Positions 4,784 to 10,217 of a DNA stretch of 37,527 nt are shown in pieces. The notes under the pieces were generated by a model, which saw only the letters and a program-made list of their open reading frames with translations, ran no database searches and was not told where the DNA came from. The stretch's first letter is position 1. Each line of letters opens with the position of its first letter. Source of the DNA: Chloroflexota bacterium. GTDB lineage: Bacteria; Chloroflexota; UBA11872. The stretch is taken from NCBI GenBank assembly GCA_026707585.1, contig JAPOWQ010000065.1, positions 1-37,527 on the forward strand, given 5' to 3'. The position numbers were made by a program, and so were the translations under genes.

Positions 4784-4987
4784 GCGCCCATATCGGGCCC
4801 GCCGGCGGCGCCGGCAGGCGCAAGTACCCTCCACAAACCGTCGCGCGGCCGCTGCGCCGGTCGCTGCGGCGCGGGTCCCGCCTTGCGTCGATCACGCTGG
4901 CGTAACAGACTGGCGTCGCTGTCGTTGGATTGCTGTAACGGTGTGTCCTATCGCCGGTCGACGGCTTTCACCGCCTTGGGAGTTGAG

Positions 4988-6934
4988 ATGCGCAAGCTAG
5001 TCATTGGTCTCGTCGTTGCAATGGTCGTGTTAGCACTGGCCGCTCCGACCCACGCGCTCGAATGCGACGGCATCAGGCTCAGCGACGGCTGCCTGTTCAC
5101 CAAGACCGGCGGCGATACGCCAAACGTGCCTGACGATGGCTACGCGGTGACCAATGCTGGCGAGGTGCCGATGTGGGACTTCGTGCGCGACAAGGACCTC
5201 CAGGCGCTGGGCTACCCCATCAGCGGACGTTGGGTGGAAGGCCCCTTCACGCTGCAGGCCTTTCAGAAGGTGATCCTGCAATGGGATTCGGTCAACGGAC
5301 GCATGAACTGGTACAACACGCTCGACGCGCTGGCCAACCGCTATCCGCGGGTTGAACTGCCCAATGTTCCGCCGCACCAGGTCCTGCCTGAAGATCGCGG
5401 TGTCACCAACTTCTCGGTCATCGTCCAGAACCATCTGGCGCTGCTTGACGCGAATCCGAAGATCAAGGCGGAGTTCCTCGCCGAGCCCAACTGGCTGAAT
5501 CTCTATGGCCTCCCCATCCGCTACGAGGAACGGGAAGTCAACGGGAATCCGCAGGGCCTGCAGTTGCTGCGTGCCCAGCGGATCGTGTTCGAGGTCTGGA
5601 ACGTGCCTGCGCCGGGCACCTCGCTCGGACGCGTCGGGCGCCAGAACGTCCCCGACAAGGTGAAAAAGCTCAGCAACGTGATCATTCCGAACGCCGCCAA
5701 GCCACCCATCACGGCGGCCCAGGCCGGTGACGCCGACGCGGTGCCGCCGACGACCACCCCGGTCACGACCACCACCCCCACGACCGACCGCACGCCGGTG
5801 CCCAGCCCCGAGCCCACGGCTCGGACGACACCGGTGCCGGTGTCCAATATCCCCCTGCCGCGAACGCTCCCGCGTGGGCTGACCGGCTTCGGCATCCAGG
5901 GTGAGTTCCGCCGTCCCGACGACGGTCGGCTGGGTGACCTGATAACTGGCGCCGGGCTGAACTGGGTGAAGCAGCAGATTCCCTGGCAGGAAGTGGAAAC
6001 TCGCCCCGGCGTATTCAACTGGGGGCCGACCGACCGCTTCGTCAACACGATGCGCGGCAAGGGCCTGAACATCCTGCTGAGCATCGTGAAGTCCCCGGAC
6101 TTCTACAAGGCCGAGCAAAGCAAAGTCGGCACGACGCACGGTCGTCCCCACAGTCCGGAGACGCTGCGCGACTTCATGCGCGAAATGGCGGCGCGCTACA
6201 AGGGCCGCGTCCAGGCCTATGAGATCTGGAACGAGGAGAACCTCTCGCTCGAGTGGGGCACCTTCTCCAACGCCTCCTACAGCCAGTTCATCCAACTGCT
6301 GAAGAACGGCTACTGGGGCGTCAAGGAGTCGGACCCCAACGCGATCGTGGTGCTCGGCGCGCCGACGCCAACCGGCGTGATGAACAACACCATTGCCATC
6401 GATGACGCGATCTACCTGCAGCGCATTTTCGACTTCAATAACGGCGAGGTCTTCAACTACTTCGAAGCTCTGGGCGTGCATCCGAACGGTGGCCCAAACG
6501 CGCCGGACGATTGGGTCGGCCGCGCCCACAACAGCAACGCCAAGTGCGGCGGCGGCTGGTCCACCCACCCCAGCTTCTTCTTCGACCGCTACAAGGAGCT
6601 CTACAACCTGATGGCGGCCCGTGGGCACCCGGAGAAGACGGTCTGGTTCACCGAGTTCGGCTGGGCCACGATTGACGGCCCCGGCGCGCCCGCCGCGCCC
6701 GCCAAGGGCTACGAGTACGCGGCCTGCAACTCGGAAGCCGATCAGGCCAACTTCTTCGTTCGGTCCTTCGCCAAGGTTCGGGCCGAAAGCCCGTACGTCA
6801 CCCACATGATCATGTGGAACCTGAACTTCCAGCAGGTTGTGCCCAACACGGACGAAAAGTGGGCGTTCGGAATCCTGCGTGCCGATCTGTCGCCGCGACC
6901 GGCCTACAACGCAATCAAGGCGATGCCCAAGTAG
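4988..6934 (+). CDS. Secreted clan GH-A glycoside-hydrolase-like protein with N-terminal repeat domain
   Basis: This is a 648-residue exported protein of unknown substrate. ATG 4988 follows GGGAG and opens a signal peptide with a hydrophobic core at about 4-19 and an A-x-A-type end (THA, 21-23). Residues about 25-235 contain two modules (around GYPISGRW, 75-82, and YGLPIRYE, 173-180) resembling repeats that Chloroflexota attach to many exported proteins. A Thr/Pro-rich linker (about 253-290) leads to a TIM-barrel domain (about 298-648) with the clan GH-A signatures W-N-E (Glu416, acid/base) and T-E-F-G-W (Glu556, nucleophile). Cys520 and Cys580 could form a disulfide. It resembles GH39/GH5-like families, but I cannot assign one. 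It stands alone between kamA and a strong terminator and probably acts on polysaccharide or glycoconjugates outside the cell. Confidence 0.8.
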   Translation: MRKLVIGLVVAMVVLALAAPTHALECDGIRLSDGCLFTKTGGDTPNVPDDGYAVTNAGEVPMWDFVRDKDLQALGYPISGRWVEGPFTLQAFQKVILQWDSVNGRMNWYNTLDALANRYPRVELPNVPPHQVLPEDRGVTNFSVIVQNHLALLDANPKIKAEFLAEPNWLNLYGLPIRYEEREVNGNPQGLQLLRAQRIVFEVWNVPAPGTSLGRVGRQNVPDKVKKLSNVIIPNAAKPPITAAQAGDADAVPPTTTPVTTTTPTTDRTPVPSPEPTARTTPVPVSNIPLPRTLPRGLTGFGIQGEFRRPDDGRLGDLITGAGLNWVKQQIPWQEVETRPGVFNWGPTDRFVNTMRGKGLNILLSIVKSPDFYKAEQSKVGTTHGRPHSPETLRDFMREMAARYKGRVQAYEIWNEENLSLEWGTFSNASYSQFIQLLKNGYWGVKESDPNAIVVLGAPTPTGVMNNTIAIDDAIYLQRIFDFNNGEVFNYFEALGVHPNGGPNAPDDWVGRAHNSNAKCGGGWSTHPSFFFDRYKELYNLMAARGHPEKTVWFTEFGWATIDGPGAPAAPAKGYEYAACNSEADQANFFVRSFAKVRAESPYVTHMIMWNLNFQQVVPNTDEKWAFGILRADLSPRPAYNAIKAMPK

Positions 6935-7032: not shown

Positions 7033-7878
7033 ATGGGCACGCTCTTCGTGGTCGCGACCCCGATCGGCAACCTGGAGGACCTGACCTTCCGGGCGGCCCG
7101 TGTTCTGCGCTCGGTGGAGGTAGTGGTAGCCGAGGACGCGCAGCGCGCCCGCAAGCTCTTGGGGCACTTGGGCTGCGCCCCCAAGATCATCACCTACCGC
7201 GAGGACAGTCCCGAGAGCCGCGAGGACGCCGTCATCGAACGGCTGCGGGCCGGCGACGCGGCGCTCATCGTTGACGCGGGAACGCCCGGCGTCTCCGATC
7301 CAGGCCCGGACCTGCTGGCGCGTGTGCGGGCCGAAGGGTTGCCTATCGTCCCCATCCCAGGACCCTCGGCGCTTGCGGCGGCGCTCTCCGTCGTGTCGTT
7401 CGCCCGCCAGCCCGTGGCATTTCTGGCTTTTCTGCCGGAGCGGCGGGTTCGGCGGCAGCGCCTCGTACGCCGCGCCGCCGACACGGCGCGCACGCTGGTC
7501 ATCTACCTGCCGCCGCACGGCGCGGCGGCGCGCCTGGCCGAACTGGAATCGTGGTTGGGCGATGTTCCGGCGGCGCTGTGCCGCGAACTTACGAAGCTCC
7601 ACGAGGAAATCCTGGAGTCCACCCTGGCTCACATTGCCAACCGCGTGGCCGTCGTAGGCGCCCGCGGCGAACTCACGGTCGTAATCGACGTCGGCGGCGT
7701 GGCTGAGGCGCCTCAGGTCGACCAGGCGACGGTGGAGGAGCAGCTGCGAATCCATCTGGACGCTGGAACGCGACCGGCCAAAGCGGCCGGTGCCGTGGCG
7801 CGGGCGCTGAATCTGCCCCGCGAGGATGTTTACCGAATTGCGCGTGAGCTGCGCGAACCGCCGCGCGGCAGCGCGTAG
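7033..7878 (+). CDS. rsmI: 16S rRNA (cytidine-1402-2'-O)-methyltransferase RsmI
   Basis: RsmI methylates the ribose 2'-OH of C1402 in 16S rRNA using S-adenosylmethionine, tuning decoding in the P site. The 281-residue protein matches the family length. It opens with LFVVATPIGNLEDLT (residues 4-18), the signature of this tetrapyrrole-methylase-fold family, followed by EDAQRARKLL, DAGTPGVSDPG and PIPGPSALAAALS. The C-terminal part (about 235-281) carries the small helical domain usual in RsmI. The ATG at 7033 has no clear Shine-Dalgarno but sits 6 nt after a TAGACT hexamer, which suggests a leaderless transcript. The gene starts the housekeeping run that continues with metG 39 bp downstream. 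Confidence 0.95.
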   Translation: MGTLFVVATPIGNLEDLTFRAARVLRSVEVVVAEDAQRARKLLGHLGCAPKIITYREDSPESREDAVIERLRAGDAALIVDAGTPGVSDPGPDLLARVRAEGLPIVPIPGPSALAAALSVVSFARQPVAFLAFLPERRVRRQRLVRRAADTARTLVIYLPPHGAAARLAELESWLGDVPAALCRELTKLHEEILESTLAHIANRVAVVGARGELTVVIDVGGVAEAPQVDQATVEEQLRIHLDAGTRPAKAAGAVARALNLPREDVYRIARELREPPRGSA

Positions 7879-7917: not shown

Positions 7918-9441
7918 TTGTCGCGCTACTACCTGACCACGTCCATCCCCTACCCCAGCGGCGAGCCGCACGTGGGGCACTCGTTCGAGATGATCACGGC
8001 CGATGCCATGGCGCGCTATCGGCGGCTGCGCGGGCAGGACGTCTTTTTCTTGGGTGGCCTGGACGAGAACAGCCAGCGCGTCAGCCGTTCGGCTCGCGAG
8101 GAAGGGATCGAACCCCAGGCCTACGTGGATCAGGCCGCCGTGCGCTTTCGCACGGCCTGGGATCTGGTGGGCGTGGAGTTTGACGACTTCGTGCGCACCA
8201 CGGAGCCGAGGCATCTGCAAACGGTGCGCGCGTTCTACCAACGGGTGTTCGATAGCGGCGATATCTACTTGGGCCGGTACGAGGGCTGGTACTGCGTTCG
8301 CTGCGAGGCCTTCTACGGCGACGACGAACTGGTCGATGGCTGCTGTCCAACGCACCGCGTGCCGCCGGAGTGGGTGGAAGAGGACAACTACTTCTTCGCC
8401 CTGTCGCGCTACCAGGAACCGCTGCTGGAGCTCTACGAACAGCGCCCGGACTTCGTCTGGCCCGAGTCGCGGCGTAACGAGATGCTGGGGTTTCTCCGGC
8501 AGGGGCTCAAGGACTTCAGCATCTCGCGAGCCACCGGCGGCTGGGGATTGCCGTTGCCGAACGATCCCAGCCACGTCATCTACGTCTGGTTCGACGCGCT
8601 CATCAACTACATCACGGGGATTGGCTTCGGTCAGCCCGGTGGTGACGACCTGTTCGCGCAGCGCTGGCCCGCGGACGTGCATGTCGTCGGCAAGGACATC
8701 GTGCGCTTTCACGCGATTTACTGGCCGGCCATGCTCATGGCGGCGGGCGTGGAGGTGCCGCGGCAGGTCTGCGTGCACGGCTGGGTCAACTTTGCCGGCG
8801 AGGAGTTGAGCCAGAGCGGCGGCCACGTCGTGCGCCCCGCCGAGGTCGTTGAACGGTTCGGCTCGGACGCGCTGCGCTATTTCCTGCTGCGCGAGGTGGC
8901 CTATGAACGCGACGGCGACTTCACCTGGGAAGGCATGGCGCGCCGTTATCAGCACGACTTGGGCAACGACCTGGGCAACCTGGTGTTGCGCAGCACCTCC
9001 ATGTTGCATCGCTACCTGGACGGTGTGGCGCCTGAACTCACGAACCTGACGAGTCAGGAGTCTGAGCTGCGCGCGGCCGAGCAGACCGCCTGGGAAGTGG
9101 CTGCCCACCAGTACGAGAACTGGCGCTTCCACTTGGCCCTGGCCGCCGTCTGGCGCTATGTCACCGCTGTGAATCAGTACATCGAGCGGACCGAGCCCTG
9201 GCGGCTGGCCAGGGACGACGCCCGGCAATCGCGGCTGCGAACGGTCCTCGCCATGCTCATGGACGCGCTGCCTCGTATCGCCACCATGATTCGTCCAGCT
9301 ATCCCGCAGACGGCGGACGCTATCGAGGAGCAACTGGGAATCGTGGGACGGCCGGCAGTCTGGGGTGACGACGGCGGGGTGATCGAAGCCGGACAGCAGG
9401 TCCCCGGCGGCCCGCCGCTGTTCCCGCGTCTGGACGGGTAG
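7918..9441 (+). CDS. metG: Methionyl-tRNA synthetase with an aberrant KMSKS motif
   Basis: MetRS charges tRNA-Met with methionine in the cytosol. The 507-residue protein has the class I Rossmann start with the HIGH-type motif HVGH (18-21), a Cys/His cluster in the connective-peptide region (C126, C129, C142, C143, H146), and the anticodon-binding helical domain after about residue 340 (DLGNDLGNLVLR). It ends without the C-terminal EMAP-II-like tRNA-binding domain, as in many bacterial MetRS. The striking oddity is at 296-300: where family members have KMSKS followed by K/R/L-G-N-V-V, this protein has ELSQS-GGHVV, so both lysines of the ATP-handling loop are missing. The surrounding sequence (HGWVNF before, ALRYFLLREV after) is normal. 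The start is TTG 7918; no ATG/GTG fits. It could be a specialised paralogue rather than the housekeeping enzyme. Confidence 0.9.
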   Translation: MSRYYLTTSIPYPSGEPHVGHSFEMITADAMARYRRLRGQDVFFLGGLDENSQRVSRSAREEGIEPQAYVDQAAVRFRTAWDLVGVEFDDFVRTTEPRHLQTVRAFYQRVFDSGDIYLGRYEGWYCVRCEAFYGDDELVDGCCPTHRVPPEWVEEDNYFFALSRYQEPLLELYEQRPDFVWPESRRNEMLGFLRQGLKDFSISRATGGWGLPLPNDPSHVIYVWFDALINYITGIGFGQPGGDDLFAQRWPADVHVVGKDIVRFHAIYWPAMLMAAGVEVPRQVCVHGWVNFAGEELSQSGGHVVRPAEVVERFGSDALRYFLLREVAYERDGDFTWEGMARRYQHDLGNDLGNLVLRSTSMLHRYLDGVAPELTNLTSQESELRAAEQTAWEVAAHQYENWRFHLALAAVWRYVTAVNQYIERTEPWRLARDDARQSRLRTVLAMLMDALPRIATMIRPAIPQTADAIEEQLGIVGRPAVWGDDGGVIEAGQQVPGGPPLFPRLDG

Positions 9442-9446
9442 CCCGG

Positions 9447-10217
9447 CTGTTCGACAGTCACGCGCACCTGGCCGATCCGGGCTTTACCGAGGACCTGGAC
9501 GCCGTCCACGAGCGCGCCCGCGACGCCGGGGTCTCGGAGGCGCTGGCGGTGGCGACCGACCTGGGCACGAGCGAGCGAGCCATTGCCATCTGCCGGAACT
9601 TTGCCGGCTGGTACCCCACGGTGGGCGTACATCCGCACGATTGCGGCGGCTTCCACGCCGCCACCGTCCAAGCTCTTCGCGACCTGGCCGGCGACGCCAA
9701 CGTCCGGGCAATCGGCGAAACCGGCCTGGATTTCTACCGCGAGCATCAGCCGCGGGCGTTACAGGAACGCGCCTTCCGTGCCCATTGCCGCCTGGCGGCC
9801 GAGCTTGAATTGCCGCTGGTCGTGCATCAGCGAGACAGCCTGGACGAAGTCGAGCGCGTACTGGCTCAGGAGCTTGGACCAGCCGGCGGGGTCATGCACA
9901 GCTTTACGGGACCGCCCGAATCCGTCGGGCGCTTCGTGGACCTGGGGCTGCACCTCTCGATCTCAGGCATCGTGACCTTCAGGCGGGCGGACCAGATGCG
10001 CGAAACGGCGGCCGCCGTTCCTGCCGAGCGGTTGCTGATCGAGACGGACGCCCCCTACCTGGCGCCGACGCCCCTGCGCGGACGCCGCAACGAGCCGGCC
10101 TACCTCGCGCATACCGCCGCCGTGGTCGCGGCAGTGCGAAACGTGTCGGTATCCTCGCTGCACGCATTCACCACCCGAAACGCTCGCAAGCTCTTCCGGT
10201 GCGCTCCCACGTCGTGA
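9447..10217 (+). CDS. tatD: TatD family metal-dependent hydrolase (DNase), CTG start
   Basis: TatD proteins are amidohydrolase-fold, divalent-metal-dependent nucleases linked to DNA repair and RNA turnover. From CTG 9447 the protein has 256 residues, the normal size. All metal-binding landmarks are present: F-D-S-H-A-H-L (H5, H7), G-E-T-G-L-D-F-Y, H-Q-R-D, M-H-S-F-T-G and E-T-D-A-P-Y-L-A-P. No ATG, GTG or TTG exists in frame between an upstream stop at 9366-9368 and GTG 9549, and a start at 9549 would remove the HxH motif. The start is therefore most likely CTG at 9447, 5 nt after the metG stop, probably by translational coupling. The stop overlaps the next gene's GTG. Confidence 0.9.
   Translation: MFDSHAHLADPGFTEDLDAVHERARDAGVSEALAVATDLGTSERAIAICRNFAGWYPTVGVHPHDCGGFHAATVQALRDLAGDANVRAIGETGLDFYREHQPRALQERAFRAHCRLAAELELPLVVHQRDSLDEVERVLAQELGPAGGVMHSFTGPPESVGRFVDLGLHLSISGIVTFRRADQMRETAAAVPAERLLIETDAPYLAPTPLRGRRNEPAYLAHTAAVVAAVRNVSVSSLHAFTTRNARKLFRCAPTS

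Follow-up and report, generated by a model that had tools for sequence, protein, structure and literature searches.

The window analyzed here, a stretch of 37,527 nucleotides, carries on its forward strand an open reading frame at 7918-9441 that encodes 507 amino acids from a predicted TTG start codon and contains ...VHGWVNFAGEELSQSGGHVVRPAEVVERFGSDALRYFLLREV..., in which residues E296-L297-S298-Q299-S300 are located. Despite missing the KMSKS lysines, the protein passes the curated MetRS1 models NCBIfam NF008900 (629 bits, cut-off 598) and TIGR00398 (475 bits, cut-off 336) and has a match to PF09334. Together with an AlphaFold2 model, these matches identify the gene as metG, coding for a methionyl-tRNA synthetase (MetRS) of the MetRS1 type. 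It is flanked on the same strand by rsmI, the gene for the 16S rRNA C1402 2'-O-methyltransferase (7033-7878; TIGR00096), and by a gene for a tatD-family nuclease (9435-10217, approximate start; TIGR00010) that overlaps the end of metG. Both are conserved neighbours by synteny: the order rsmI-metG-tatD is found in both genera of the family, and in relatives tatD, a prenyltransferase gene and menG run downstream of metG. Upstream of rsmI lies an open reading frame of 683 amino acids (4883-6934, +) with no Pfam match at 1e-8, a homologue of which occurs twice in tandem in genome G013 (L165).

The AlphaFold2 model of the window MetRS has a pLDDT of 93.1 and a pTM of 0.91, with pLDDT of ~76-84 in the KMSKS-loop region, residues 291-310. 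The 50 PDB matches listed are all MetRSs, the best with TM-scores of 0.94-0.95 (2x1l/6ax8); the leading ones listed are the enzymes of M. smegmatis (2x1l), Brucella (4py2) and M. tuberculosis (6ax8) and the S. aureus MetRS with ATP. Identity to the best structural matches is ~37-42% over the whole length. The predicted structure is a normal MetRS1 fold, made up of a Rossmann core and the CP, stem-contact and anticodon domains. The HVGH signature (H18-V-G-H21, 7969-7980) is intact, as the first-pass annotation had stated. The cysteine-rich knuckle of the CP domain, C126-x2-C129 ... C142-C143-P-T-H146, is encoded at 8293-8355, and its residues C126, C129 and C143 are nearly invariant in the alignment. 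K259 (8692-8694), in the invariant GKDI motif, is a remaining active-site lysine. The fold, the HVGH-type signature, GKDI and the CP and anticodon domains are shared with other bacterial MetRS1 enzymes (2x1l from M. smegmatis, 6ax8 from M. tuberculosis, 4dlp from Brucella, 2csx from A. aeolicus). In contrast, those structures keep the loop lysines (KMSKS/KMSKT in the alignments shown), where the window MetRS has ELSQS, H303 and R306.

Textbooks list the lysines of KMSKS among the catalytic residues of class I synthetases. In the window MetRS, the position of this loop (8803-8817) reads E296-L-S-Q-S300, followed by G301-G302-H303-V304-V305 (8818-8832) and R306-P. The earlier description of an ELSQS loop followed by GGHVV in an otherwise intact MetRS is thus exact, from the sequence and the curated models alike. 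Two replacements go beyond the lysines named there. H303 (8824-8826) takes the place of the Asn of KMSKSxGN, and R306 (8833-8835) that of an Asp or Glu. Both lysines are missing in 18/18 aligned members of the family; it is noted that a KMSKS loop with both lysines is characteristic of MetRS1 and not strictly defining, as characterised MetRSs with KFSTS exist. His303 is likewise present in all 18 members and is not among the common residues of 86 outgroup sequences. Arg306 is found in 17 of the 18, with Thr in UBA6622.

The alignment confirms that relatives outside the family carry the lysines, with Lys at position 299 in 86/86 outgroup sequences and Lys or Arg at position 296 in 83/86. The altered loop is fixed, as far as the 13 genomes of the window's genus tell: the 12 other species, whose enzymes are 71-95% identical to the window MetRS, have ELSQS, with one ELTQS. 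In the sister genus the loop is PMSQT in five of six species. Common to the whole family are therefore K299Q and N303H (18/18), with Glu at 296 in one genus and Pro in the other. Loops in the neighbouring family are KMSKS, KLSKS and AMSKT, with Ala at 296 in two lineages, which indicates that the first loop position was already loose there. Within the window's genus the loop codons vary synonymously (GAG/GAA for Glu, TTG/CTG/CTC/CTA for Leu, CAG/CAA for Gln), and among close species their changes are synonymous only. The dN/dS of the window metG against closer species is 0.044-0.096 (Nei-Gojobori), and the family's metG is under strong purifying selection.

Further family-specific substitutions lie near the substrates, namely Y/D11P, I19V, A22S, T25M and T46G. 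In M. tuberculosis MetRS, Ile10 and Tyr12 line the wall at the site matching the codon of residue 11 (7948-7950) (PMC6038951). G46 (8053-8055), Thr elsewhere, lies three residues before the invariant D49. Family-specific changes fall on 11/49 substrate-binding positions against 16/147 equally conserved ones, a marginal enrichment (Fisher p = 0.055) for which the substrate-binding segments were our own choice from published MetRS structures. With the enrichment marginal, H303 stands as a candidate, and we infer that it is the best one, for a compensating residue. A plain charge swap, with E296-R306 replacing K296-D306, was also considered and is unsupported by the loop combinations in relatives. 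The PMSQT enzymes have R306 without E296, UBA6622 has E296 with T306, and another MetRS of the window's genome, described below, has Lys with Arg.

In a TIGR00398 search, the variant enzyme was the sole MetRS in 17 of the 19 genomes of the family. Most of these genomes are fragmented metagenome assemblies, 76-97% complete, so that a second MetRS may possibly have been missed in some of them, but not plausibly in all 17. In the gene tree the MetRSs of the family form one clade (support 100), and the other family of the order is its sister group, in agreement with taxonomy. Because it is fixed across the family, is strongly constrained by purifying selection and is the sole MetRS in 17 of 19 genomes, the variant enzyme very probably charges tRNA-Met.

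The two remaining genomes differ from this pattern. In that of the window (G000), a second MetRS1 gene lies on contig C72 (25434-26954, minus strand; L009:8432-9955). Its product scores 659 bits against NF008900, is 42% identical to the variant enzyme and has the loop KVSKS, keeping both lysines, with Arg at the position corresponding to 306. It is placed on a long branch outside the Chloroflexota MetRS clade, and the gene was not found in the other 18 family genomes; it was probably acquired late and horizontally. A contaminating contig was considered and is unlikely: the flanks of the gene have 75-88% nucleotide identity to genus relatives, so the contig is probably part of the window's genome. 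Its neighbours include genes for a GNAT acetyltransferase, an ABC-2 transporter and a homocysteine S-methyltransferase. The genome search for an intact metG, proposed in the first-pass annotation, thus had a positive outcome in the window's genome and a negative one in the sister species. As the enzyme is missing from the latter, it offers no explanation for tolerance of the altered loop across the family.

The other exception is a genome of the sister genus (G018), in which only a metG remnant of 77 codons is left between rsmI and tatD (C24:101212-101442; L160:8213-8443), with approximately the first 39 residues joined in frame to the last ~20. The remnant lies away from the edge of a 317-kb contig. 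Loss of the native gene seems to have followed the arrival of another MetRS, though there is a small chance that the deletion is an assembly artefact. The sole MetRS of this genome is of the unrelated MetRS2 type (C19:106874-108472; NF001100, 588 bits against 587), with HAGQ for HIGH and KASSS for KMSKS. Loss with replacement is what would be expected if the job of the native gene is tRNA-Met charging. The MetRS2 gene adjoins an ftsH-like gene.

The rarity of such loops was evaluated in 400 Chloroflexota genomes, the scope of the scan, with a DNA pattern for MetRS1 loops in which the codon of the second lysine starts with C, G or T. As a control, the pattern and its lysine version recovered 103 of 109 fetched loci. 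The pattern is blind to Thr, Asn, Ile, Met and AGY-encoded Ser and to MetRS2 types. The 18 family members expected were all recovered, and the single additional MetRS-like loop was RLSRS, from a different Chloroflexota family (G368:C10:27366-27470; L248), with Arg as a conservative replacement of both lysines. Outside the family, no MetRS1 with the second lysine changed to a non-basic residue was found among the replacements visible to the pattern in these 400 genomes. Four further matches belong to a different gene (NTYHLLLRPG...TDSGGFQVFSLG), which we read from its sequence as a putative queuine tRNA-ribosyltransferase.

From these comparisons we propose, with considerable confidence, that the variant enzyme is the ordinary and essential MetRS of this lineage, charging tRNA-Met through an ATP loop that has neither KMSKS lysine. 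Methionine activation with ATP and the charging of tRNA-Met would continue via the altered loop. The second lysine would have been lost on the family stem (K299Q) and the first at 296, to Glu or Pro according to genus, with S298, S/T300, the glycine after the loop and the HVGH histidines kept. ATP binding and stabilization of the transition state may then rest on HVGH, K259 and backbone contacts of the loop, assisted by the co-fixed H303 and perhaps by R306 or a bound cation, and the catalytic rate or the inhibitor profile has probably changed. Compensation is the weak step of this scheme: the enrichment has p = 0.055, and R306 is found as well in the C72 enzyme, which has both lysines, and is missing in UBA6622. 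The compensated active site envisaged in the first-pass annotation accordingly stands as regards fixation, purifying selection and the status of sole MetRS, and not as regards compensation itself, which we infer. The fuller proposal, that the essential MetRS of the whole family has a re-engineered ATP loop in which neither lysine is needed and H303 with its neighbours, or a cation, provides stabilization, is put forward tentatively, at somewhat less than an even chance.

Loss of the second lysine has precedents. The archaeal-type MetRS2 of P. abyssi (PDB 1rqg, KFSTS) is likewise a MetRS without it; however, it keeps the first lysine and belongs to the other MetRS subfamily. Among other class I enzymes, the TrpRSs of human (KMSAS) and of P. 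falciparum (KMSST) also lack the second lysine (PMC3680381), but they keep the first and have another amino-acid specificity. Nearer to hand, the CysRSs of relatives from three families in the same Chloroflexota class have KMAHS or KMGHS (L214-L242; L007:1369-2787), with His in place of the second lysine in these same genomes, whereas the first lysine and GN are kept and the distribution is much broader. According to the literature, the second KMSKS lysine is hardly ever missing (PMC5370406). In S. aureus MetRS the KMSKS loop, along with HIGH, closes over the phosphates of ATP (PMC9071491), and in LeuRS the second lysine touches the phosphate and the first touches C75 of the tRNA (PMC5059758). 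Wide occurrence of the variant in characterised active MetRSs, which the first-pass annotation had named as grounds for refutation, holds for loss of the second lysine alone, in P. abyssi, and not for loss of both. In the openly licensed literature we found no paper describing a MetRS that lacks the two lysines. Absence of the pair from a sole MetRS appears to be new, loss of the second lysine being already known.

Among the alternatives, near-neutral degeneration fares best, although we consider it unlikely. The lysines would have drifted away, uncompensated, in slow growers that tolerate a much slower MetRS. The variation at position 296 among relatives (Ala, Pro, Glu), the KM[AG]HS loops of CysRS in the class and the marginal enrichment of active-site changes are all consistent with such drift. 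However, drift should keep changing Q299 and H303, which are fixed in the family, and the gene is strongly constrained.

In human TyrRS (KMSSS), K+ is reported to replace the second lysine. By analogy, a monovalent cation such as K+ might stand in for it here as well: the mechanism is known from this other class I synthetase, and Q299 could offer a carbonyl ligand. Against this, the family-specific H303 is an alternative means of support, and we regard replacement by a cation as rather improbable.

Resistance at the target site could also have driven selection of the loop change, in response to a natural inhibitor of MetRS that makes use of the KMSKS lysines, which we consider improbable. The analogy is with IleRS2, where an altered HIGH motif (GXHH) leaves the enzyme active and mupirocin hyper-resistant (PMC10485003). 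As in the window MetRS, a class I signature motif has changed naturally, and in IleRS2 activity is retained; the motif and the enzyme are different, however, and resistance has been shown for IleRS2 alone. Resistance would fit the family-specific substitutions in the methionine-pocket and HVGH segments, as well as the foreign MetRSs acquired by G018 and G000, such acquisitions being known for resistance synthetases too. On the other hand, the same class has CysRSs without the second lysine, so an inhibitor is unnecessary for a change of this kind.

The first-pass annotation had raised a second MetRS-like paralogue with a different job. In the form of a paralogue working outside translation, with tRNA-Met charged by another MetRS, this reading is very improbable. 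It could draw on the KVSKS enzyme of the window's genome, on a contig with genus-matching flanks, but this gene is missing from the other 18 genomes, 17 of which have the variant enzyme alone, and its position on a long branch outside the Chloroflexota clade points to late acquisition. The agreement of the gene tree with taxonomy and the conserved rsmI-metG-tatD locus also argue against a paralogue. Explanations by faulty sequencing or assembly, or by a pseudogene, can be practically dismissed, since the same residues recur in independent assemblies of 12 other species with differing synonymous codons and the 507-residue frame is open, with dN/dS < 0.1.

The loops KMSKS, AMSKT, PMSQT and ELSQS form a natural series with which the roles of the two lysines, and their replaceability, can be tested. 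A MetRS with neither lysine, as the sole such enzyme in nearly every sequenced species of a family of uncultured Chloroflexota, suggests that rewiring of an ancient catalytic motif is possible in an enzyme with a housekeeping role, and makes the motif alone unsafe ground for calling a synthetase inactive.

Two observations on other synthetases should be mentioned. In G003, the match to the native cysS (C45:8568-9977; L226) has one in-frame TAA, and a second CysRS, 41% identical, is encoded at C19:8134-9546; this is possibly another synthetase replacement in progress. The loop of ValRS usually continues with a GNVIDP-type sequence. In a ValRS-like protein of the window's genome (C65; L198:1384-4092) and in L200, the loop is KVSKT (KVSKS in G002), followed by NYQPGDDP.
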